A stretch of 64,000 bases of DNA. It comes from an uncultured Vicinamibacterales bacterium (GTDB lineage Bacteria > Acidobacteriota > Vicinamibacteria > Vicinamibacterales > UBA8438). The notes under the pieces were generated by a model. That model made no database searches. It had not been told where the DNA came from and worked only from the letters and a program-made list of their open reading frames with translations. The translations under genes and the position numbers were made by a program. The DNA is taken from assembly GCA_958295905.1 (NCBI GenBank), contig OY282382.1, positions 806,001-870,000 on the forward strand. The letters run 5' to 3'. Of the stretch, positions 5,962-55,090 are shown in pieces (the first letter of the stretch is position 1; each line of letters starts with the position of its first letter).

Positions 5962-7146
5962 TCAGTACTTGGGCAGGGTCGGGTCGATCCGGTCGATCCA
6001 GGCGAGAATGCCGCCGGCGAGGTTCCGCGCCCCGGCGTAGCCGGCCTCGTGGAGCAGGCGCACCGCCTTGCCGCTGCGGACGCCGGACTTGCAGTGCACG
6101 ATGATGTCGTCGCGCCCCTTGAGCTCGGACAGCCGGGACGGCAAGTCGCCCAGCGGAATAAGCACCGACCCGGGGATGCGGCAGATCTCGAACTCGCGCG
6201 TCTCCCGGACGTCGAGCAGGAGAAACGGGTCGTCCCGATCGATCCGCCGCTTCAGCTCCTCGACGGTCGCCGCGCCATCGGCCGCGGGGTCTGCCGCGGC
6301 CGGCGCCGGCGGGGCGTCCGCGGCCGGCGCCACGCCGCAGAACTGCTCGTAGTCGATCAGCTCGGTCACCGTCGGATGCTCGCCGCAGACGGGGCAGTCG
6401 GGGGCCTTGCGCACCGTCAGCTCGCGGAACCGCATCTTCAGCGCATCGAACAGAAGGAACCGCCCCACGAGCGGCTCGCCCGCCCCCAGGATTAGCTTGA
6501 CCGCCTCGGTGGCCTGCAGCGTCCCGACGACCCCCGGCAGAATGCCCAGCACCCCGCCCTCGGCGCAGCTCGGCACGAGCCCCGCCGGGGGCGGCTCCGG
6601 AAACATGCACCGGTAGCAGGGACCGCCGGCCGCCGCGAAGACCGAGGCCTGTCCCTCGAACCGGAAGATGCTGCCGTACACGTTCGGCTTGCCGGAGAGC
6701 ACGCAGGCGTCGTTGACGAGGTACCGCGTGGGAAAGTTGTCGGTGCCGTCAACCACGAAGTCGTAGTCGGCGAACAGGGCGAGGGCGTTCTGCGATGACA
6801 AGGCCAACTCGTGGGTGACGACCTCGACCTCGGGGTTGAGGGCGTTCAACCGCGACTTGGCGGAGGCCAGCTTGGATCGGCCCACATCGGGGGTGCCGTG
6901 GATGATCTGGCGCTGCAGGTTGCTGTAGTCGACCTCGTCGAAGTCGACGATCCCGATGGTGCCGACGCCGGCCGCCGCGAGGTAGAGGGCGACCGGCGAG
7001 CCGAGACCGCCGGCGCCGATGCACAGCGCCCGCGCCGCCTTCAGCTTCCGCTGCCCGTCCATGCCGACCTCCGGCATGATGAGGTGCCGGCTGTAGCGGG
7101 CGACCTCCTCGTTGGTCAACGCCGGCAACGTCGCTGCCGGCGTCAC
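5962..7146 (-). CDS. moeZ: MoeZ/MoeB-type adenylyltransferase-sulfurtransferase
   Basis: 394 residues. The N-terminal E1-like ThiF/MoeB domain (about 1-265) has the nucleotide loop GAGGLGSP, the DNFPTRYLVND strand, zinc cysteine pairs CYRC and CPVC, and the CAEGGVLG segment. A proline/alanine linker leads to a C-terminal rhodanese domain with active loop HCKSGVRSG. Such proteins adenylate the C-terminal glycine of a ubiquitin-like carrier and convert it to a thiocarboxylate, using rhodanese persulfide sulfur. The GTG start overlaps the cysO stop (GTGA at 7143-7146), so the pair is translationally coupled and CysO is the obvious partner. It may also serve molybdopterin synthesis, but no moa genes are nearby. 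Confidence 0.93.
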   Translation of the reverse strand: MTPAATLPALTNEEVARYSRHLIMPEVGMDGQRKLKAARALCIGAGGLGSPVALYLAAAGVGTIGIVDFDEVDYSNLQRQIIHGTPDVGRSKLASAKSRLNALNPEVEVVTHELALSSQNALALFADYDFVVDGTDNFPTRYLVNDACVLSGKPNVYGSIFRFEGQASVFAAAGGPCYRCMFPEPPPAGLVPSCAEGGVLGILPGVVGTLQATEAVKLILGAGEPLVGRFLLFDALKMRFRELTVRKAPDCPVCGEHPTVTELIDYEQFCGVAPAADAPPAPAAADPAADGAATVEELKRRIDRDDPFLLLDVRETREFEICRIPGSVLIPLGDLPSRLSELKGRDDIIVHCKSGVRSGKAVRLLHEAGYAGARNLAGGILAWIDRIDPTLPKY

Positions 7147-7427
7147 GATGCCCTCCCGCCGGCCACCGACGGAATGATGCTGACGGTGTCGTCCGGCGTC
7201 ACCGGCGTCCGCTCCTTGTCGAGATACCGGATGTCGTCGTCGTTCACGTAGATGTTGACGAAGCTCCGGAGGGTCCCGTCTTCCTTGTAGAGATGCTGGC
7301 GGAGGCCGGTGTATTGCGCCGTCATGTTGGCGAGCAGCTCGCCGACCGTTTGCCCGTCCGCCTCGACGACATCCTGTTTGGCGGTGTAGGGACGCAAGGG
7401 TGTGGGAATCAGGATCTTGGTGGCCAT
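7143..7427 (-). CDS. cysO: CysO-like ubiquitin-fold sulfur carrier with masked C-terminus
   Basis: 94-residue beta-grasp (MoaD/ThiS/CysO) protein beginning ATKILIPTPLRPYT, with FVNIYVNDDDIRYL in the middle and VSIIPSVAGG near the end, the arrangement of mycobacterial CysO. Family members carry sulfide as a C-terminal Gly-Gly thiocarboxylate. Here the diglycine is residues 90-91 and is followed by Arg-Ala-Ser, so the carrier must be trimmed before MoeZ can adenylate it. A JAMM protease gene lies just upstream in the same transcription direction, and such trimming is known for Pseudomonas QbsE/QbsD. The 3' end overlaps moeZ by 4 bp. The extra tail is read directly from the DNA; trimming is inferred. 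Confidence 0.9.
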   Translation of the reverse strand: MATKILIPTPLRPYTAKQDVVEADGQTVGELLANMTAQYTGLRQHLYKEDGTLRSFVNIYVNDDDIRYLDKERTPVTPDDTVSIIPSVAGGRAS

Positions 7428-7460
7428 GGTGTCTTGTCGCGCTCAGTTGATTCTAGCCCG

Positions 7461-7948
7461 GAAATCGTCGCCTGCGGCTCCGATTGCCGCCCGACCAACC
7501 CTCCCGGAGTCCGCACCGTTCCACGGCGCCGACTCCCGCCCCGGAAATCGTCGCCTGCGGCTCCGATTGCCGCCCGACCAATCCTCCCGGAGTCCGCACC
7601 GTTCCACGGCGCCGACTCCCGCCCCGGAAATCGTCGCCCGCGGCTCCGATTGCCGCCCGACCAACCCCCCCGGAGTCCGCACCGTGCTACGGCGCCGACT
7701 CCCGCCCCGGAAATCGTCGCCCGCGGTTCCGATTGCCGCCCGACCAACCCCCCCGGAGTCCGCACCGTGCTACGGCGCCGACTCCCGCCCCGGAAATCGT
7801 CGCCTGCGGCTCCGATTGCCGCCCGACCAACCCTCCCGGAGTCCGCACCGTGCTACGGCGCCGACTCCCGCCTCGGAAATCGTCGCCTGCGGCTCCGATT
7901 GCCGCCCGACCACCCTCCCGGAGTCCGCACCGTGCTACGGCGCCGACG
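7461..7948. repeat. six-unit 83-bp tandem repeat array
   Basis: The start of the segment GAAATCGTCGCC recurs at 7461, 7544, 7627, 7710, 7793 and 7876, an exact 83-bp period; the sixth unit is cut at about 73 bp. Units differ by only a few substitutions (CTGCGGCTCC or CCGCGGTTCC; CCGTTCCACGG or CCGTGCTACGG). Each unit contains an imperfect hairpin, GGAGTCCGC...GCCGACTCC. The array fills the space between mec and cysO, and its last unit enters the 3' end of mec by about 14 bp. There are no variable spacers, so it is not CRISPR. Diverged single copies occur at about seven other intergenic places in this window. Confidence 0.95.
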
Positions 7949-8366
7949 CCTGGTCGGTGTCTCCGATGACGACGGCTTCCTCGTCGAACCCGGACCGGTC
8001 GTCGCGCAGACGCCACGACGTCAGGGAACCGGGCTCGCGGTCCGCCACCGCCACGATGACGTAGTCAAGCGCCGGCCAGGCGTGGTCGAGGTCGTACTGC
8101 GACGGCTGCGCCGGGGCGTCGGGATGCGAGTGGTAGAATCCGAGCAACTCCCCTCCCTGCTCGGCCGCCCGGCGCTCGGCCGCTTGGTAGTCGACCGGCC
8201 GCACCAGGAACCGCCGGCGCGGGCCCTCGGGGGTGGTGTTCGGCAGCGCGAGCGCCTCGGTGACCACCCGGTCCCGCCCGATCAGGGCGCCGCAGCACTC
8301 GTGCGGGTACGCATCCCGGCCATGCCGGCGAATGCCGGCGTCGGCCGCCTCCCCAATAACCAGCAT
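7935..8366 (-). CDS. mec: Mec-type JAMM metalloprotease (M67)
   Basis: 143-residue zinc protease of the JAB1/MPN+ family. Glu23 lies in PHECCGALIG, and the metal motif is HSHP...SQYD (His79, His81, Ser89, Asp92), the full HxHx7Sx2D pattern. In mycobacteria Mec releases cysteine from the CysO-cysteine adduct; related enzymes also trim carrier C-termini to expose Gly-Gly, which this CysO needs. Upstream of ATG 8366 the frame stays open, but that part is a dispersed repeat, and the conserved fold starts at MLVIGEAADAG. The last codons run into the 83-bp array, so the C-terminus (DTDQASAP) may be repeat-derived. Order on the minus strand is cysM, mec, array, cysO, moeZ. Confidence 0.9.
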   Translation of the reverse strand: MLVIGEAADAGIRRHGRDAYPHECCGALIGRDRVVTEALALPNTTPEGPRRRFLVRPVDYQAAERRAAEQGGELLGFYHSHPDAPAQPSQYDLDHAWPALDYVIVAVADREPGSLTSWRLRDDRSGFDEEAVVIGDTDQASAP

Positions 8367-8389
8367 GACGGCTAGTGTCCAGTCCCTTG

Positions 8390-8640
8390 ACAGCCCGTGG
8401 TGAAACCCCGCGTTAGCCCCGAGGACGGCGAGGGTGCCGGCGGGCTGAAGAGCGCCCGCGGACAAAGAACGCCCGTGCCTGACAACGCGTGAGGAGGGTG
8501 CCTGTTGCGGTGAAACCTGTCCCGGCGTTTCGTGGCGTCGGGGTGATCGGCGTCCCCGATCATGACGGTTCGGGCATGGGCAACCGACGAGCAACACAGT
8601 CGGGCGGGATGCATCGCCGTTCGAAGGCAGCGGGGACTTT
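8390..8640 (-). repeat. composite dispersed repeat (inverted copy)
   Basis: Read on the minus strand, this stretch contains three blocks found elsewhere. The first (8580-8640) contains TTCGAACGGCGATGCATCCC. The second (8505-8570) contains GTCATGATCGGGGACGCCGA. The third (8390-8500) contains TTGTCAGGCACGGGCGTTC. Blocks one and three recur, without the middle block, at 57740-57950; the middle block recurs at 25832-25893 and 62623-62690. No reading frame is conserved between copies. The rest of the 8641-8842 gap holds nothing I recognise. Confidence 0.8.
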
Positions 8641-8842
8641 CGCCACGGGCTGTTAAATTCGCATCACAACCGGTGTCACCCTTGCCGATGACCCGATGAC
8701 CGACTGAGACGCGGTGACCCAGACCAACGGCGCAGGTCACGGTACGCGGAACCAGCTTGCGTCCGCGCAGAATCACGTTACGAATTTACGAGACGGCACA
8801 CCAAGCGCGGCGCTCTCCGGTCGAGCCCGCGGCGGGGTCCAT

Positions 8843-10192
8843 CTATTCGGAATCGGTGACGTAGCCCTTCCCGCGCCACGCCAGGGTACCGCCGGTGATG
8901 CTCCGCACGTTGCGATAACCGAGCGACTTCAGAAACAGCAGGCCCGACAGCGAGGCGTTGCCGCGTTGGCACACGCTCAGCACCGGCGCATCCCGGTCGC
9001 GGGGCAGCACCGCGAGGTAATCGGCGTTCCCGCCCAGTTCGGACAGCGGGATGTTGATCGCGCCCGGAATGTGCGCCTCGTCGTACTGACCGGCCGGACG
9101 CACATCGAGGACGAACGGCTTCTCCCGCCGCCACTGCTCATGCGCGGCGTCGACGTCGATGGTCAGGTCCGGATTGCCCCGCACGTTCTCCCGCATCCGA
9201 TCGAGCAGGGGACTCGGCCCCGCGCCGTTGCCGGCCCGTGCCTGCGGCGCGAGGGCCGGCAGGTGCTTGGCGACCGACGAAGCGTACTTGAAGGCGCTGT
9301 CCGGAAAGATGACGACGACGACGTTGCCGGGCGCGTCCGGCACCAGCGCGAACGCGCCGGCCAGGGCCATCGCGGAGCTGGGCCCGGCCGTGATGCTCTC
9401 CTCGCGGTTCAACCGGAGACACAGGTCGAACGCCTGCTGATTCGAGACCTCCACCTGCCGGTCGTATTCGTCGGGCCGATAGAGCTGCGTCTGCTGCAAC
9501 TGCCGCAGGCTGCGCACCCCCGGGATGTCGTGTCCCTCGTTCGGATAGACGCCCACCACCTGCACGTCCGGACGCTGGTCTTTCAGAAACCGGCCGGTGC
9601 CGGCGATGGTGCCGCACGTGCCCAACCCGGCCACGAAGTGGGTGACCCCGCCCTGCGTCTGGCGCCAGATCTCGGGCCCCGTGGTCTTGTAGTGCGCCTC
9701 GGGGTTGGCCTCGTTCACATACTGGTTCAGCATGTGAAAGTCCGGCCGCCCGCCGATCTCGGTCGCCTTGGCGATCGCCCCTTCCGGCGCGCCCGGCGCC
9801 GGACACAGCGTATCCTGCAGCTCCATCACGTCGGCCCCGAAGAACCGCAGCATCGTGCGCTTCTCGAGGGGAATCTCGCTCGACAGCGGCGTGGTCAGCG
9901 AATAACCCTTGGCGTTCGCGATCATCGCCAGCGCCATGCCGGTGTTCCCCGACGTCGGCTCGACCAGCTTCTGGCCGGGCTGCACGGTCCGCCGCGTCTC
10001 GCCGTCCGCGACGAGGTTGGCGGCGACCCGATCCTTGACGGCGCCGAACGGGTTGTACCACTCGAGCTTGGCGTAGACCTGCGTCTGCGTGTACGGGGTC
10101 ACCCGGTTCAGGCGCACGAGCGGCGTGGGATTGTCGGCGTCGCACTGGAGACCGAGAATCGAGTCATAGACCCGAAGCGCATGATCGTTCAT
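8843..10192 (-). CDS. cysM: CysM-type cysteine synthase fused to rhodanese
   Basis: 449 residues. Residues 1-330 form a fold-type II PLP enzyme with the PLP lysine in NPFGAVKDR (Lys53), the substrate loop TSGNTGMA and the phosphate loop GTCGTIAGTG. Residues about 340-449 form a rhodanese domain with active cysteine in VCQRGNASLSG. Mycobacterial CysM uses O-phosphoserine and CysO-thiocarboxylate; the arginine in GVRSLRQ (Arg230) seems to align with the phosphate-recognising arginine of that enzyme, which is my inference. Downstream mec, cysO and moeZ complete the route. The fused rhodanese could bring persulfide sulfur to the carrier or directly to the enzyme. Start ATG 10192 faces a divergent aminotransferase gene. 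Confidence 0.9.
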   Translation of the reverse strand: MNDHALRVYDSILGLQCDADNPTPLVRLNRVTPYTQTQVYAKLEWYNPFGAVKDRVAANLVADGETRRTVQPGQKLVEPTSGNTGMALAMIANAKGYSLTTPLSSEIPLEKRTMLRFFGADVMELQDTLCPAPGAPEGAIAKATEIGGRPDFHMLNQYVNEANPEAHYKTTGPEIWRQTQGGVTHFVAGLGTCGTIAGTGRFLKDQRPDVQVVGVYPNEGHDIPGVRSLRQLQQTQLYRPDEYDRQVEVSNQQAFDLCLRLNREESITAGPSSAMALAGAFALVPDAPGNVVVVIFPDSAFKYASSVAKHLPALAPQARAGNGAGPSPLLDRMRENVRGNPDLTIDVDAAHEQWRREKPFVLDVRPAGQYDEAHIPGAINIPLSELGGNADYLAVLPRDRDAPVLSVCQRGNASLSGLLFLKSLGYRNVRSITGGTLAWRGKGYVTDSE

Positions 10193-10413
10193 GACTGTGG
10201 CTCAATTCGTGTCGAACTCGTGTCTGCTTTCACGCCTGACGATGACGAGCGCCCGCCGATCCCGCAACCGTACATGTTAATTCGGCCTCGGCCGGGCTTC
10301 AAGGGGAGGCGACGTTTCCCCGCCGCGGCGGCTCGCAAGACCGGTTACACTGGAAGACCGCGCCGCCCGCCCCCGGCGCGCCGCTGTCGCCGGGGCGCCG
10401 GACACGACGTGGA

Positions 10414-11526
10414 ATGCGCATCGACCCCTTCGACCTCGAACGCTGGCAATCGGTTCACGAGCACCGCACCGGGATCAACCTGTCGGAGAGCGGAGCGCAC
10501 CCCCTGCAGGTGCGGGAGCTCGCCGACGGCCGCGATCTCGACGCGCTGCTCGCTCAGTCCCTGGAGTACACCCAGACCAACGGCACCGCCCTGCTGCGCG
10601 AACGGATCGCGGCGCTCTACGACCGCGCGTCGGCCGCCAACGTCCTCGTCACCAACGGCGGGGCCGAAGCGAACCTCCTCGCCTGCTGGCAGTTGATCGA
10701 GCCGGGCGACGAAGCGGTCGTCGTCCAGCCCACCTACCTGCAGATCCCGGGGCTGGTCCGGTCGTTCGGGGCCACCGTGCGCGACGCGTGGCTCGAGCCC
10801 GAGCCGACCCGCTGGCGCCTGAACCTGGATGCGGTGCGCCAAGCGGTCGGCCCCCGCACCCGGTTCATCTCCGTCTGCAACCCGAACAACCCGACGGGGG
10901 CGCGTCTGGACGAGCCGACGGTCGCCCGGCTGTGCGAGATCGCGGCCGGCCGGGGGTGCTGGCTGCTCGCCGACGAGATTTATCGCGGGGCCGAGCTCGA
11001 CGGCCGGGACACGCCGTCGATGTGGGGCCGGTACGAACGGGTGGTCATCACCGGCGGGCTCTCGAAAGCGTACGGCCTGCCGGGTCTGCGGATCGGCTGG
11101 CTGGCCGGACCGGCCGACCTGATCGACGCGCTGTGGGGGCGCCGCGACTACACGTCGATCGCGCCCGGCGCGATCAACGACCTGCTGGCGCGCCTGGCCC
11201 TCGAACCGGAGCGCCGCCGCCACCTGATCGCCCGCACCCGGCGCATTCTGCGCGGGAACCAGGCCGTGGTGGCCGAGTGGGCCGCCGGCCGCCCCACCGT
11301 CCACCAGATCCCGCCGGAAGCCGGCGGCGTGACCCTGATACGCTATTCCGGCGCCCGGCCCTCGACCGAGCTGGCGGAACGGCTCCGCCTGGACCACGAC
11401 GTGCTGGTCACGCCCGGATCCCATTTCGGTCTGGACCACCATCTCAGGATCGGCATCGGCGGCGAGCCGGCGCCGCTGAGGGCCGGGCTCGACAAGCTGG
11501 GACAGGTGCTCGAAACCGACCGGTGA
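10414..11526 (+). CDS. PLP-dependent aminotransferase class I/II
   Basis: 370-residue fold-type I aminotransferase. The PLP lysine is in GGLSKAYGLPGLRIGW (Lys218); other contacts are CNPNNPTG and LLADEIYRGAE, and the distal arginine region reads HHLRIGIGG. Family members transfer amino groups between amino acids and 2-oxo acids, or act as C-S lyases. Substrate is not predictable; the neighbouring divergent cysteine operon and the downstream CoA-transferase give no decisive clue. The start codon at 10414 lies just before MRIDPFDLERWQS, which looks like the family's natural N-terminus. Confidence 0.85.
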   Translation: MRIDPFDLERWQSVHEHRTGINLSESGAHPLQVRELADGRDLDALLAQSLEYTQTNGTALLRERIAALYDRASAANVLVTNGGAEANLLACWQLIEPGDEAVVVQPTYLQIPGLVRSFGATVRDAWLEPEPTRWRLNLDAVRQAVGPRTRFISVCNPNNPTGARLDEPTVARLCEIAAGRGCWLLADEIYRGAELDGRDTPSMWGRYERVVITGGLSKAYGLPGLRIGWLAGPADLIDALWGRRDYTSIAPGAINDLLARLALEPERRRHLIARTRRILRGNQAVVAEWAAGRPTVHQIPPEAGGVTLIRYSGARPSTELAERLRLDHDVLVTPGSHFGLDHHLRIGIGGEPAPLRAGLDKLGQVLETDR

Positions 11527-14157: not shown

Positions 14158-14240
14158 GGAGTCTGCGCCGTAGAACGGCGCGGACGCCTGGAGGGTTGGT
14201 CGGGCGGTGAGCGGAGCCGTAGGCGACGCTCTCCGGGCTG
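14158..14240 (-). repeat. single copy of the 83-bp hairpin repeat family
   Basis: Inverted relative to the array at 7461-7948. Contains the hairpin GGAGTCTGCGCCG / CGGCGCGGACGCC followed by GAGGGTTGGTCGGGCGG. It ends about 14 bp before the start of the DtxR-type gene, so it would lie in that gene's leader. Confidence 0.7.
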
Positions 14241-20726: not shown

Positions 20727-20806
20727 GCGCGGACTCCCGGCCCGGCAATCGCCGCCTGCAGCTCCGCCGCCGCCCAACCAACCCTCCAGGAGTCGGCGCC
20801 TCCTAC
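20727..20806 (+). repeat. single copy of the 83-bp hairpin repeat family
   Basis: Same orientation as the 7461-7948 array: GGACTCCCGGCCCGGCAATC, then GCCCAACCAACCCTCCAGGA and GTCGGCGCC. Lies in the leader or upstream region of argG. Confidence 0.65.
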
Positions 20807-20808
20807 GG

Positions 20809-20903
20809 GGAAGTCGGTGCCTCCTGCGGAAGTCGGTGCCTCCTGCGGAAGTCGGTGCCTCCTGCGGAAGTCGGTGCCTCCTGCGGAAGTCGGTGCCTCC
20901 CGC
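20809..20903. repeat. five tandem copies of a 19-bp unit
   Basis: GGAAGTCGGTGCCTCCTGC repeats at 20809, 20828, 20847, 20866 and 20885 with an exact 19-bp period; the last copy ends CCCGC. A diverged version (GGAGTCGGCGCCTCCTAC) just precedes it and is the hairpin arm of the adjacent 83-bp family copy, from which this minisatellite probably expanded. Confidence 0.92.
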
Positions 20904-27138: not shown

Positions 27139-27236
27139 CCCGGGAGTCTGCGCCGCAGGGTACCCCCCCGGAGGCGCAGACTCCCGGGAGGGTCGGTTGG
27201 GCGGTAATCGGAACCGCCGGCGACGATTCCCGGGCT
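27139..27236 (-). repeat. 83-bp family copy with a perfect 16-bp stem
   Basis: CCCGGGAGTCTGCGCC (27139-27154) pairs exactly with 27173-27188, loop 18 nt; then GAGGGTCGGTTGGGCGG and GACGATTCCCGGGCTGG, the family tail in inverted orientation. It lies 22 bp after argJ and could stop or pause transcription before argF, although no T-run follows. Confidence 0.75.
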
Positions 27237-28954: not shown

Positions 28955-29050
28955 CCCCGGCGCGGCAATCGTCGCCTGCCGCTCCGACTGCCGCCCAACC
29001 AACCCTCCAGGAGCCGGCGCCGCCTGCGGGAGCTCACGGCTCGGAGTCCC
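28955..29050 (+). repeat. single copy of the 83-bp hairpin repeat family
   Basis: CGGCAATCGTCGCCTGCCGC, then GCCCAACCAACCCTCCAGGA and a hairpin arm GCCGGCGCC. Fills the purD-purE gap. Confidence 0.7.
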
Positions 29051-42101: not shown

Positions 42102-43679
42102 ATGCCGACGCCCCGATCACGCCGTCCCCCGCTGGCGCTCGTCATTCTCGACGGCTGGGGCGAGAGCGCCGAACCGGGCGGCAACGCGATCCGGCAGGCG
42201 CGGACGCCGGTCTACCGGGAACTCCGCGGGCGGTATCCGTCCAGCCGGTTGACCACCTGCGGCGAGGCGGTTGGACTGCCGCCGGGTCAGATGGGCAACT
42301 CCGAGGTCGGGCACATGAACCTCGGTGCGGGACGGATCGTGTTTCAGGACCTGACCCGCATCGATCGTGCGATTGCCGCAGACGAGCTGGCCGCAAGCGT
42401 CCCGCTGACCACCCTGCTCGATGCCTGCGCCCACGGCGGCCGCACCTTGCACTTCGTCGGTCTCCTGTCGGACGGGGGCGTGCACGCCCATCAGCGGCAC
42501 CTCCACGCGCTGGTGCGGATCGCGGCGCGGCGGGGCGTGGGCCGGGTGCTGGTGCACGCCATCACCGACGGTCGGGATACTCCCCCTAACGGCGGCGCGG
42601 GGTATCTGGCGGCGCTGGACCGCTGCCTTGCCGACGCCGGCGTCGGACAGATCGCGACCGTGTGCGGCCGGTACTACGCGATGGACCGGGATCACCGCTG
42701 GGACCGCACGCGCCGCGCCTACGAGGCGATGACCCTGGGTCTCGGGGCTCGCGGGACCGACCCGGCGGCCGCCGTCGAAGGCGCGTACGCCCGCGGCGTC
42801 ACCGACGAGTTCATCGCACCGTGCGTCATCACCACCGACGACGATCGGCCGGTGGGACTCCTCCGTGACGGCGACGCGGTCATCTTCTTCAACTATCGGG
42901 CCGATCGCGCCCGCCAGTTGACCCGGGCGCTGGCCTTCGACGACTTCGACGGCTTCGAACGGCGGTCGCCTCCGGCCCTGCGCGTATTGACGCTGACCGA
43001 GTACGACGCCACGTTTCATCTGCCCGTGGTCTTTCCGCCCCAGACCTTCTCGGGTAGTCTGGCCGAGGTGCTGGCCGCGCACGGCCGGACCAGCCTGCGG
43101 CTCGCCGAGACGGAGAAGTACGCGCACGTGACCTACTTCTTCAACTGCGGCGACGAGCAGGCCCCCCCCGGCGAAGATCGGATTCTCGTCCCCTCTCCGC
43201 GCGTCCCGACCTACGACCTCGAGCCGGCGATGAGCGCGGCCGGCATCACCGATCACCTGATCGCGGATCTGACCGGTCGGCGGCACGACGTGGTGATATG
43301 CAACTTCGCCAACGCCGACATGGTCGGCCACACCGGCCGTCTCGACGCGACGGTGACCGCCGTCGAAACGCTGGACCGGTGTCTGGCGCGGATCCTCGAC
43401 GCGGCCCGAACCGCCGGCGCCACGATCATCATCACCGCCGACCACGGCAACGCGGAGCAGATGTGGGACGCGGAGCGCAATGGACCGCATACCGCGCATA
43501 CCACCAATCCGGTCCCCGTCGTGCTCGCCGGACCGGACGTCGAAGCGGACATGCCGCTCCGCGACGGCGCGCTGCGCGACGTCGCCCCGACCATGCTGGG
43601 CATCCTGGGCATCGCGCCGCCGCCCGAGATGACCGGGCGCGACCTGCGCGGCTGGATCGGGCGGGAGTCTCCGCCGTAG
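42102..43679 (+). CDS. gpmI: 2,3-bisphosphoglycerate-independent phosphoglycerate mutase
   Basis: 525 residues, the length of iPGM. Interconverts 3- and 2-phosphoglycerate through a phosphoserine intermediate, Ser67 in QMGNSEVGHMNLGAGR. Metal and phosphatase motifs: VILDGWGES, FFNYRADRARQLTRAL, ADMVGHTGRLDATV and IITADHGNAEQMWD. Start ATG 42102, with TTGGAG just upstream; an in-frame start 30 bp earlier is possible. Both flanks are non-coding; repeats follow the stop. Confidence 0.97.
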   Translation: MPTPRSRRPPLALVILDGWGESAEPGGNAIRQARTPVYRELRGRYPSSRLTTCGEAVGLPPGQMGNSEVGHMNLGAGRIVFQDLTRIDRAIAADELAASVPLTTLLDACAHGGRTLHFVGLLSDGGVHAHQRHLHALVRIAARRGVGRVLVHAITDGRDTPPNGGAGYLAALDRCLADAGVGQIATVCGRYYAMDRDHRWDRTRRAYEAMTLGLGARGTDPAAAVEGAYARGVTDEFIAPCVITTDDDRPVGLLRDGDAVIFFNYRADRARQLTRALAFDDFDGFERRSPPALRVLTLTEYDATFHLPVVFPPQTFSGSLAEVLAAHGRTSLRLAETEKYAHVTYFFNCGDEQAPPGEDRILVPSPRVPTYDLEPAMSAAGITDHLIADLTGRRHDVVICNFANADMVGHTGRLDATVTAVETLDRCLARILDAARTAGATIIITADHGNAEQMWDAERNGPHTAHTTNPVPVVLAGPDVEADMPLRDGALRDVAPTMLGILGIAPPPEMTGRDLRGWIGRESPP

Positions 43680-43765
43680 AACGGCGCCCCCTCCCGGACT
43701 CCGGCCGGGGTTGGTTGGGCGGCCGTCGGAGCCGCCGGCGACGATTCGCGGGTCGGGGATCGGGT
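43667..43765 (-). repeat. single copy of the 83-bp hairpin repeat family
   Basis: Inverted: GGAGTCTCCGCCGTAGAACG, then GGTTGGTTGGGCGGCCGTCG and GACGATTCGCGGGTCGGG. Its left end includes the last codons of gpmI. Confidence 0.7.
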
Positions 43766-45659: not shown

Positions 45660-45775
45660 CCCGCTTGCATTCGAGCGGCGGCGCATCCCGCCTGTCCCGT
45701 CTGAACTGCGTTGTTCGTCGGTGCCGTGGAACGGTGCGGATTCCCGGACGGCTGGTCGAGCGACGAGCGGAGCCG
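45660..45775 (+). repeat. mixed repeat copies after the mutase gene
   Basis: GCATTCGAGCGGCGGCGCAT followed by CCCGCCTG and GAACTGCGTTGTTCGTCGG match the first block of the composite repeat (57740, inverted 8610). Directly behind it, 45720-45775 is a diverged inverted copy of the 83-bp family (GTGGAACGGTGCGGATTCCC). Confidence 0.6.
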
Positions 45776-45831
45776 ACCAGGCGGCGGCCCCGTGGCGGGA
45801 CCCCGTGGAGCCGGGGTCCTTGCACGGTCCG

Positions 45832-47823: not shown

Positions 47824-48417
47824 ATGGCAATCTTCAAGAAGCTCAAGGGCGACAACGACCTCCGGGTTTCCATGACGGGGCTGCGGCTCGGCGACAAGGT
47901 GCTCCAGATCGGGAGCGGCGACCCGCGCCTGATCGCGATTCTCGCCGCCAAGGTCGGCATCAACGGACAGGCGTCGGCTCTGGTCCCGGACGACGGGGGC
48001 GCCGGCCCCATCAGAGGCGCCGCCGAGGCGCGGGGGGTGCTGGTCGATGTGAAGGTGGCCCCGCTGCGGACGCCGCCGTTCGCCCAGGGGTGGTTCGACC
48101 TGGTGGTCATCCCCGAGCTGATCGGCGCCATGCGCCCGCACGAGCGCGTGGGGACCCTGCAGGGCGCACGGCAGGTGCTCCGGGTCGGCGGCCGGTGTCT
48201 CGTCATCGAGGCCGCACCGCGCGGGGGACTGGGGGCGCTCTTCTCCGGCCGCGCCCTCGACCCGCACTATCGCTCGCAGGGCGGCGCGGAGCCGGCCCTG
48301 CGTGCGGAGGGTTTCAAACCGGTGCGCACCCTCGCCGAGCGGCAGGGCCTGCTGTTCACCGAAGGCATGAAACCGGATCCGCAGGACGCTCCTGACGCGG
48401 TCCGGGGCGCCCGCTGA
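47824..48417 (+). CDS. methyltransferase-like protein
   Basis: 197 residues with a Rossmann methyltransferase outline: [26 protein letters not shown] (motif I), [19 protein letters not shown] (motif post I region) and [23 protein letters not shown]. The acidic residue after strand 2 is not obvious, so SAM binding is probable but not sure. The 3' end lies in a duplicated 87-bp unit, so the last 19 residues may be recent. Divergent from ino1 by about 95 bp. Confidence 0.7.
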
Positions 48418-48534
48418 CCGCGGCGGCGCGCCCCGCCTCACCTCGCTGAAGGCATGAAACCGGATCCGCGGGACGCTCCTGATGCGGCCCAGGGTGCCGG
48501 CCGACCGCGGCGGCGTGCCCCGCCTCACCCCGTG
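48361..48534. repeat. tandem duplication of 87 bp at the 3' end of the gene
   Basis: GAAGGCATGAAACCGGATCC starts at 48361 and again at 48448. The first copy carries the stop of the methyltransferase-like gene; the second is outside it with about 10 substitutions. Confidence 0.85.
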
Positions 48535-48619: not shown

Positions 48620-49741
48620 ATGGACGCTACGCTGGCCACGGTCACCATCGTCTCGCTGCTGTTGGCGTGGGCGATGGCCGTCGTCACCAGGCAACGCATC
48701 CGGGCGGAGCGGCGGCTCTCCGATGCCCGAGCCGCGGCCCTGATGGCGGAGCTCACGGGGAATGCCGCCCTCCCCGAGGGACCGCACGGGCGGCCGGAGT
48801 CGCGCCCTCCGATGCGGCCGGAGTCGCGCCCTCCGATGCGGCCGGGGTCGCGCCCTCCGATGCGGCCGGAGTCGCGCCCTCCGATGCGGCCGGGGTCGCG
48901 CCCTCCGATGCGGCCGGAGTCGCGCCCTCCGATGCGGCCGGGGTCGCGCCCTCCGATGCGGCCGGAGTCGCGCCCTCCGATGCGGCCGGGGTCGCGCCCT
49001 CCGATGCGGCCGGAGTCGCGCCCTCCGATGCGGCCCGCGCCCCGCCCACCGATCATGCATCCCGCGGCGGTCCGGAAGGTGCCCCCGGGACGACTGCACG
49101 CGCCGGTCGAGCCGCCGGTCGAGTTGCGCCTGCCGTTCACGGCGCCGGAGGATACGTTGGGAGCCCGCGGTGAGATGCCGCGTGCGACCGCGTCCGTCGC
49201 CGGGCCGGCGCGGCAGGACCCGCCGGCCCGGCGGCCGGACCTCTGGCGGGAGGTGCTCGCGCCCACGCCCCGGGCGCGGCCGCGCTGGGGCCACCGTCTG
49301 GCCGCCGTCGCGGTCGGCACCGTCCTCGTCGCCGGCGTCTCCCTCGCCGACCGCACGCCGGGCCCGCGCGACCCGACGGCGGCGGCCGTGCCGGTCGAGC
49401 TGTTGTCGCTCGACCACCGCAGGCAAGGGGACTATCTGGCCGTCAGCGGCTCCCTGCGCAATCCCCCGGGCGGGAAGGAACGCGCGAAACTGAGCATCAC
49501 GGCGACCGTCTTCGATCGGACGGGCGCGGTCGTCGGCACCGGTCAGACCCCCCTTCCAGTGACGGTGCTGCCCCCGGGGAGCGACACCGCGTTCACCATT
49601 TCCCTGCCGGACGCGGACGTGATCAACCGCTATCGGGTAAGCTTCATGGAAGGCCGCGTCAGCCTGCCGCACGTCGACCGGCGCCACGCGGTTGCGCCGG
49701 GGGACGCCGCGATGCCGGTATCGGTGGGGACCCGACCATGA
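48620..49741 (+). CDS. bitopic or two-span membrane protein with FxLYD-like domain and RP repeats
   Basis: 373 residues. A membrane helix ([15 protein letters not shown]) comes first, then a long Arg/Pro-rich tract of ten 8-residue units (RPESRPPM or RPGSRPPM, about residues 58-137). A second helix ([20 protein letters not shown], near 225) leads to a C-terminal FxLYD-type beta domain ([33 protein letters not shown]). The basic tract between the helices would be cytoplasmic by the positive-inside rule. Overlaps the VWFA gene by 4 bp (ATGA), so the two are co-translated. Function not known. Confidence 0.72.
48791..49030 (+). repeat. in-frame minisatellite, ten 24-bp units
   Basis: Exactly ten units of CGGCCGGAGTCGCGCCCTCC plus GATG; after the first, units alternate between GAGTCG and GGGTCG, giving a 48-bp higher-order period. 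The repeat length is a multiple of three, so copy-number change would alter only the length of the Arg/Pro tract. Confidence 0.95.
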
Positions 49742-54967: not shown

Positions 54968-55090
54968 CTTGGCCCGGAAATCGTCGCCGGCGGTTCCGTT
55001 AGCGTTAGCCGCCCAACCAACCCTTCAGGAGTGCGCGCCGTTCTACGGCGCGGACTCTGGCGCCGGAAATCGCTGCGTTGCGGCTCCTGC
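54968..55090 (+). repeat. copy of the 83-bp hairpin repeat family
   Basis: GGCCCGGAAATCGTCGCCGG, GCCGCCCAACCAACCCTTCA, then a hairpin arm GGAGTGCGCGCCGTTCTACG / GCGCGGACTC; it continues into the beginning of a second unit (GGAAATCGCTGCG). Lies between pcnB and xth. Confidence 0.75.

Follow-up and report, generated by a model that had tools for sequence, protein, structure and literature searches.

By reading of the sequence, six units arranged head to tail, each 83 bp long except the last (82 bp), occupy the spacer between mec and cysO in the 64-kb window (the whole stretch of DNA that was analysed, 64,000 nucleotides). The array starts about 30 bases upstream of the start codon of cysO, and its last unit extends over the 3' end of mec. 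Tandem Repeats Finder (TRF) reported the array at 7457-7947, with a period of 83, 5.9 copies, 97% matches and a score of 898. The neighbouring genes and the other copies of the repeat in the window, seven further places located with a profile built from window copies, are given in Table 1.

Table 1. Features of the mec-cysO locus and further repeat copies in the window.
Feature	Coordinates	Strand	Basis
MoeZ-like E1/rhodanese, downstream in operon	5962..7146	-	
cysO-like sulfur carrier (ThiS family)	7143..7427	-	
Left flanking tetranucleotide CTAG (congener empty sites CTGG / CCGG)	7453..7456		
Array of six units (83, 83, 83, 83, 83, 82 bp)	7457..7953	+	TRF and unit sequences
Hairpin A, unit 1 (CGGAAATCG-TC-GCC-TGC-GGC-TC-CGATTGCCG), recurs every 83 bp	7459..7489	+	Covariation, 48 genomic copies
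Hairpin B, unit 1 (GGAGTCCGCACCGT...ACGGCGCCGACTCC, GGAGTC...GACTCC), recurs every 83 bp; two abutting IS1182-type terminal repeats	7506..7536	+	
mec (Prok-JAB protease), stop TAG in hairpin B loop of last unit (7935-7937), C-terminus shorter than congeners'	7935..8366	-	
Right flanking tetranucleotide CTGG	7950..7953		
cysM-like cysteine synthase with rhodanese domain, upstream	8843..10192	-	
Other repeat copy	14159..14235	-	Profile
Other repeat copy, hairpin B region enlarged by 19-bp x 5.7 array 20791-20900	20744..20815	+	Profile, TRF
Other repeat copy	27144..27231	-	Profile
Other repeat copy, partial	28964..29023	+	Profile
Other repeat copy	43665..43746	-	Profile
Other repeat copy, diverged	45717..45786	-	Profile
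Other repeat copy, then second partial unit	54975..55057	+	Profile and sequence

Each unit consisted of hairpin A, a CCAACCC linker, hairpin B and a tetranucleotide. Hairpin A occurred in two main variants (AATCG/CGATT and GAGCG/CGCTC), and the linker GGGTTGGTTGGGCGG was almost invariant among copies; the last array unit carried a 1-base deletion (ACCACCC instead of ACCAACCC). Pairwise differences among units 1 to 5 were 1 to 6 of 83 bases, with units 1 and 2 near-twins and units 3 and 4 likewise. The original prediction of a six-fold array of near-identical units with an exact 83-bp period, placed between mec and cysO, was confirmed, apart from the shorter sixth unit. The GGAGTC...GACTCC hairpin that it attributed to every unit was exact in five of the six and imperfect in the sixth (GGAGTC...GACGCC), and hairpin A, the second hairpin of each unit, had been overlooked, as had the further copies in the window and the overlap of the last unit with mec.

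A single unit folded with z = -4.5 (+ strand) and z = -3.2 (- strand), and the RNA of the whole mec-cysO spacer was predicted to fold strongly (z = -6.8), so the structure of the array is not due to chance. Both stems were kept in 93.2% of cells across 48 aligned genomic copies. Double-change cells in the stems numbered 39, against 16.9 in shuffles (0/500) and 5-10 in slid registers; as related copies can exceed shuffles without any structure, this covariation is support and not proof. The Rfam search of window positions 6000 to 10500 returned no match at E <= 1, and the search near the array for intrinsic-terminator-like sites and sigma-70 promoters found none. A CRISPR array was rejected, as the whole 83-bp unit repeats with no unique spacers between. 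From the sequence alone, two further features were considered: a reading frame of 13 codons that follows GGAGG in the linker, which indels among copies break, and a G-quadruplex in GGAGGGTTGGTTGGGCGG.

The unit was not confined to this locus. A search of the same genome with the array gave 44 matches, on the chromosome and on a second contig. An 864-kb sample, made up of the window and 40 stretches of 20 kb selected by their position, contained 82 units in 63 arrays: 50 were single units, 10 were double, 2 were triple and one, at mec-cysO, was sixfold. Genome-wide numbers, which are extrapolated from the sampled stretches, came to about 600 units per 6.3-Mb genome. Tandem spacing was most commonly 83 bp (24 cases), followed by 84 bp. 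With a covariance model the repeat was present in 13 of 193 Vicinamibacteria genomes, all of one family, and an exact 42-base core was matched in GTDB contigs titled Vicinamibacteria or Acidobacteria. There was no match in the plasmid collection, and relatives of the repeat were searched for in viral contigs and none was found.

Variation was also seen within units. At window positions 20791-20900, local expansion took another form, with a 19-bp unit (AGTCGGTGCCTCCTGCGGA) repeated 5.7 times inside hairpin B of a different copy. A recurrent alternative form of hairpin B had a GGCGCCTCC...GGAGGCGCC palindrome nested in its loop (locus L026, 13237-13325; L033, 13355-13443). Two other repeats were observed in the window: a 24-bp repeat of 11 copies (48790-49053) in the open reading frame 48620-49741 (+), encoding alternating peptide repeats and with no relation to the array seen, and an 87-bp direct repeat of 1.9 copies (48361-48529) at the 3' end of the open reading frame 47824-48417.

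Genomes of two congeneric species, G001 and G002, aligned on either side of the array position with nothing between. The site read GTTGATT-CTGG-TCCGCGG in G002 and GTTGATT-CCGG-TCCGCGG in G001, against GTTGATT-CTAG-(497 bp ending CTGG)-TCGGTG here, that is, a single CYRG where this genome has CTAG-array-CTGG. The suggestion of a hypervariable site, to be examined by comparing copy number with relatives, was thereby supported in that the site varies between species (six copies here, none in either congener). At L030 there were two units here, one in G001 and none in G002, which keeps TTCTAG; the arrays at L026 and L061 lacked a counterpart in a congener; and at L049 all three genomes had copies, in differing numbers. 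The repeat is dispersed through the genome and polymorphic in its insertions.

The tetranucleotide CYRG stood at 37 of 60 left ends and 43 of 68 right ends (background 2.8%), and CTAG at 14 of 60 left ends and 13 of 68 right ends (background 0.02%). Left and right flanks of the same array were identical in 6 of 46 cases, with 5.1 expected (p = 0.39, permutations). Matching target duplications at both ends of the unit were thus in no excess over permutations; the flanks being no more alike than when permuted, CYRG may represent a target motif plus an element-borne copy and not a classical duplication.

In G001 and G002 the mec frame runs beyond the start of cysO (...ETADRNQPDEHDETPWPPGS in G001), and the two genes overlap in both. 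Here mec ends in ...GDTDQASAP, with its stop supplied by the array inside hairpin B, and does not overlap cysO; insertion of the array between the two genes ended the overlap. As read from the sequence, the insertion would have given mec a new stop, removed the overlap and added about 500 nt of structured RNA to any mec-cysO transcript. The proposal that the array decouples expression gains a concrete footing from this comparison, in that an overlap present in both congeners is gone here, which would be consistent with uncoupling. By position the hairpins would lie within the mec-cysO message, as had been proposed, provided that the operon is co-transcribed.

Through lone hairpin B ends, a family of 109-bp MITEs was recognised that has GAGTCTGCGCCGYAGRA as its inverted ends and flanks of the CTAG type; it was present in 16 copies in the sampled loci (L020, 8294-8402, and 15 similar loci) as two subtypes with the interiors CGATTTTGGGCACGATTAG and CGGTTTTGGGTCCGATCTGG. 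A DDE transposase search led to a 1580-bp insertion sequence (IS) with the same ends as the 109-bp MITE; its terminal inverted repeat (TIR) of about 17 bp is GAGTCTGCGCCGCAG, and its ends are also given as GAGTCTGCGCC. The transposase of 440 aa matched NF033551 at 1.4e-107 (360.6 bits, cut-off 270). All seven IS copies with both ends had identical 4-bp flanks (CTAG or CTCG, mostly CTAG), one of them being internally shortened to 874 bp. Transposase, TIRs and exact 4-bp duplication place the element in the IS1182 family, of which ISPse1 (1653 bp, 16/16 IR, 4-bp DR; PMC3281130) is a comparable member. The IS was observed at L120 (1274-2853) and about eight other loci; in L124 it stands head to tail with a 109-bp MITE, a single CTAG being common to the two. 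In other genomes of the class, CTAG|GAG also formed the end of some IS1182 relatives (e.g., L138 and L141), and IS fragments of 79-91% identity with the same terminal repeat occurred in three other genomes that carry the repeat (G012, G014 and G185). No IS1182 copy close to this IS was found in G001 and G002, and draft genomes often lose IS copies.

As the arms of hairpin B are of the same type as the IS and MITE ends, hairpin B corresponds to two IS1182-type ends back to back. No convincing match of hairpin A to the IS or to the 109-bp MITE was found, and its outer end (CCCGGAAATCG) is not an IS1182 end. The repeat carries no gene, and only its hairpin B matches IS ends, in which it differs from IS1182 elements. 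In a bacterial MITE both outer ends are TIRs of an autonomous IS; hairpin B alone and the 109-bp family have such ends and the unit does not. The unit is short, non-coding, present in many copies and polymorphic in insertion, as bacterial MITEs are, and it is called MITE-like and not a MITE because the outer end of hairpin A is unmatched. Like CTAG-targeting bacterial MITEs such as MITEPsy1 (PMC3189936), it is palindromic, has a tetranucleotide target and is kin to IS ends. Unlike them, it has its only TIR pair inside hairpin B, ends on the other side in a second, unrelated hairpin and is arrayed in tandem; MITEPsy1 has its closer counterpart in the 109-bp family of the same genome.

The array is best explained, with fair confidence, as an inserted non-autonomous MITE-like mobile repeat, probably mobilised by an IS1182 transposase, with tandem amplification following the insertion; from the shared ends, IS1182 is a likely but unproven mover. 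The transposase would move the two-hairpin repeat in trans, the CYRG borders would then act as new targets or recombination partners, and the six near-identical units would have arisen by duplication at mec-cysO, as the twin-like pairs among the units suggest. The outer end of hairpin A, the non-matching flanks and the failure to find a close IS1182 copy in G001 and G002 count against this explanation. An IS701-type transposase was rejected as the mover, with no DDE_5 (PF13546) match in the same genome.

The orientation of the repeat is not predicted by simple DDE transposition and also counts against the IS1182 explanation. None of 86 repeat loci lay inside predicted genes, against 75% coding in the sample (P about 1e-51; genes for the context counts were predicted with a simple script based on codon usage). 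Where the genes on either side were co-directional, the repeat was antisense to them in 45 cases and sense in 8. Replication strand was rejected as the cause, the same bias being present on both strands (antisense to sense, 26:5 and 19:3). In 29 of 84 elements the stop codon of the antisense gene was no more than 30 bp away from the end of hairpin B; 12 gene stops coincided with the flanking CTAG, and 6 fell in the loop of hairpin B. Several left ends sat in ATTCTAG, the reverse of a TAGAAT box, and insertions of this kind just upstream of a gene were observed at window positions 7450-7456 and at the left ends L026 6698, L030 1544, L049 2159 and L056 3420. The TAGAAT boxes may be -10 elements, in which case the repeat may replace the -35 regions at these insertions. 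At 0.21 per kb, CTAG is scarce in this genome, and the association with stop codons and -10 boxes may reflect no more than its survival there.

The repeat may have been retained because it acts at the RNA or DNA level (by protecting 3' ends, terminating transcripts, insulating the translation of adjacent genes or binding a protein), which is compatible with a mobile origin, though the balance leans against such a function. The strong gene-orientation bias, independent of replication strand, is consistent with such a function, as are the clustering of stop codons at the end of hairpin B, in the flanking CTAG and in the loop, the covarying stems and the near-invariant linker. Purging of harmful insertions would, however, also yield an orientation bias, and the covariation could mirror the structure of the source elements themselves. 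Orthologous positions were often not conserved, even between congeners, and the repeat was missing from most of the class. A further reading, in which a composite of an IS1182 end dimer and a second structured end inserts at CTAG by stop codons and -10 boxes, amplifies, has its orientation set by transcription and serves as a portable insulator of transcripts, by which neighbouring genes are uncoupled time and again in this family of Vicinamibacteria, is conceivable but rather unlikely. Mycobacterial MIRUs are short units between operon genes at overlapping stop and start sites, variable in tandem number and mostly in one orientation. By analogy, the repeat resembles them in placement, tandem number and orientation, in a different phylum. 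The orientation bias is the best reason to seek a function, if any, for the repeat.

Movement of a REP/BIME-like element by a tyrosine (HUH) transposase of the RAYT or IS200/IS605 kind, acting on single-stranded hairpins and the tetranucleotide, has a low probability. High copy number, extragenic position, imperfect hairpins with a tetranucleotide at the foot and tandem clusters would all suit it; the outer end of hairpin A and the end of hairpin B do not form an inverted repeat, and the non-matching flanks suit HUH activity better than DDE duplication. However, Y1_Tnp (PF01797) was absent from the same genome and from 9 of 10 other carriers with multiple matches (only G018 had one) and was present in several non-carriers, and Y2_Tnp (PF04986, IS91-type) was absent from the same genome and from most carriers tested. 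RAYT/Y1_Tnp and IS91-type Y2_Tnp were rejected as mobilisers on finding neither in the genome of the array. The arms of hairpin B, moreover, are IS1182 terminal repeats. REP/BIME sequences with RAYT (PMC2817692) likewise form hundreds of extragenic imperfect hairpins in clusters; here no RAYT was found in the genome, the units are head to tail and not alternating, and the arms match a DDE-type IS.

Inflation of the copy number in assembly, to which tandem repeats are generally prone, is unlikely, its probability being very small: the array units bear distinct substitutions, arrays of 2-6 units (83/84 bp) recur at many loci as well as in genomes that were assembled independently, and the array sits on a 6.1-Mb contig. 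An operon-specific regulatory array grown by local duplication, as the original prediction framed it from the six structured units between mec and cysO, is equally improbable, since the unit is found hundreds of times elsewhere in the genome and the site is empty in congeners; the mobile repeat is spread genome-wide, and the array in the cysO operon is one of its insertions.

An apparent oddity of one operon belongs, on the IS1182 explanation, to a family of mobile repeats that is specific to the lineage, has a plausible transposase and reaches a REP-like copy number without RAYT. Its hundreds of copies make the gene-orientation bias statistically testable, and the loss of overlap in the CysO sulfur-carrier gene pair makes a possible uncoupling effect testable by comparison of congeners.
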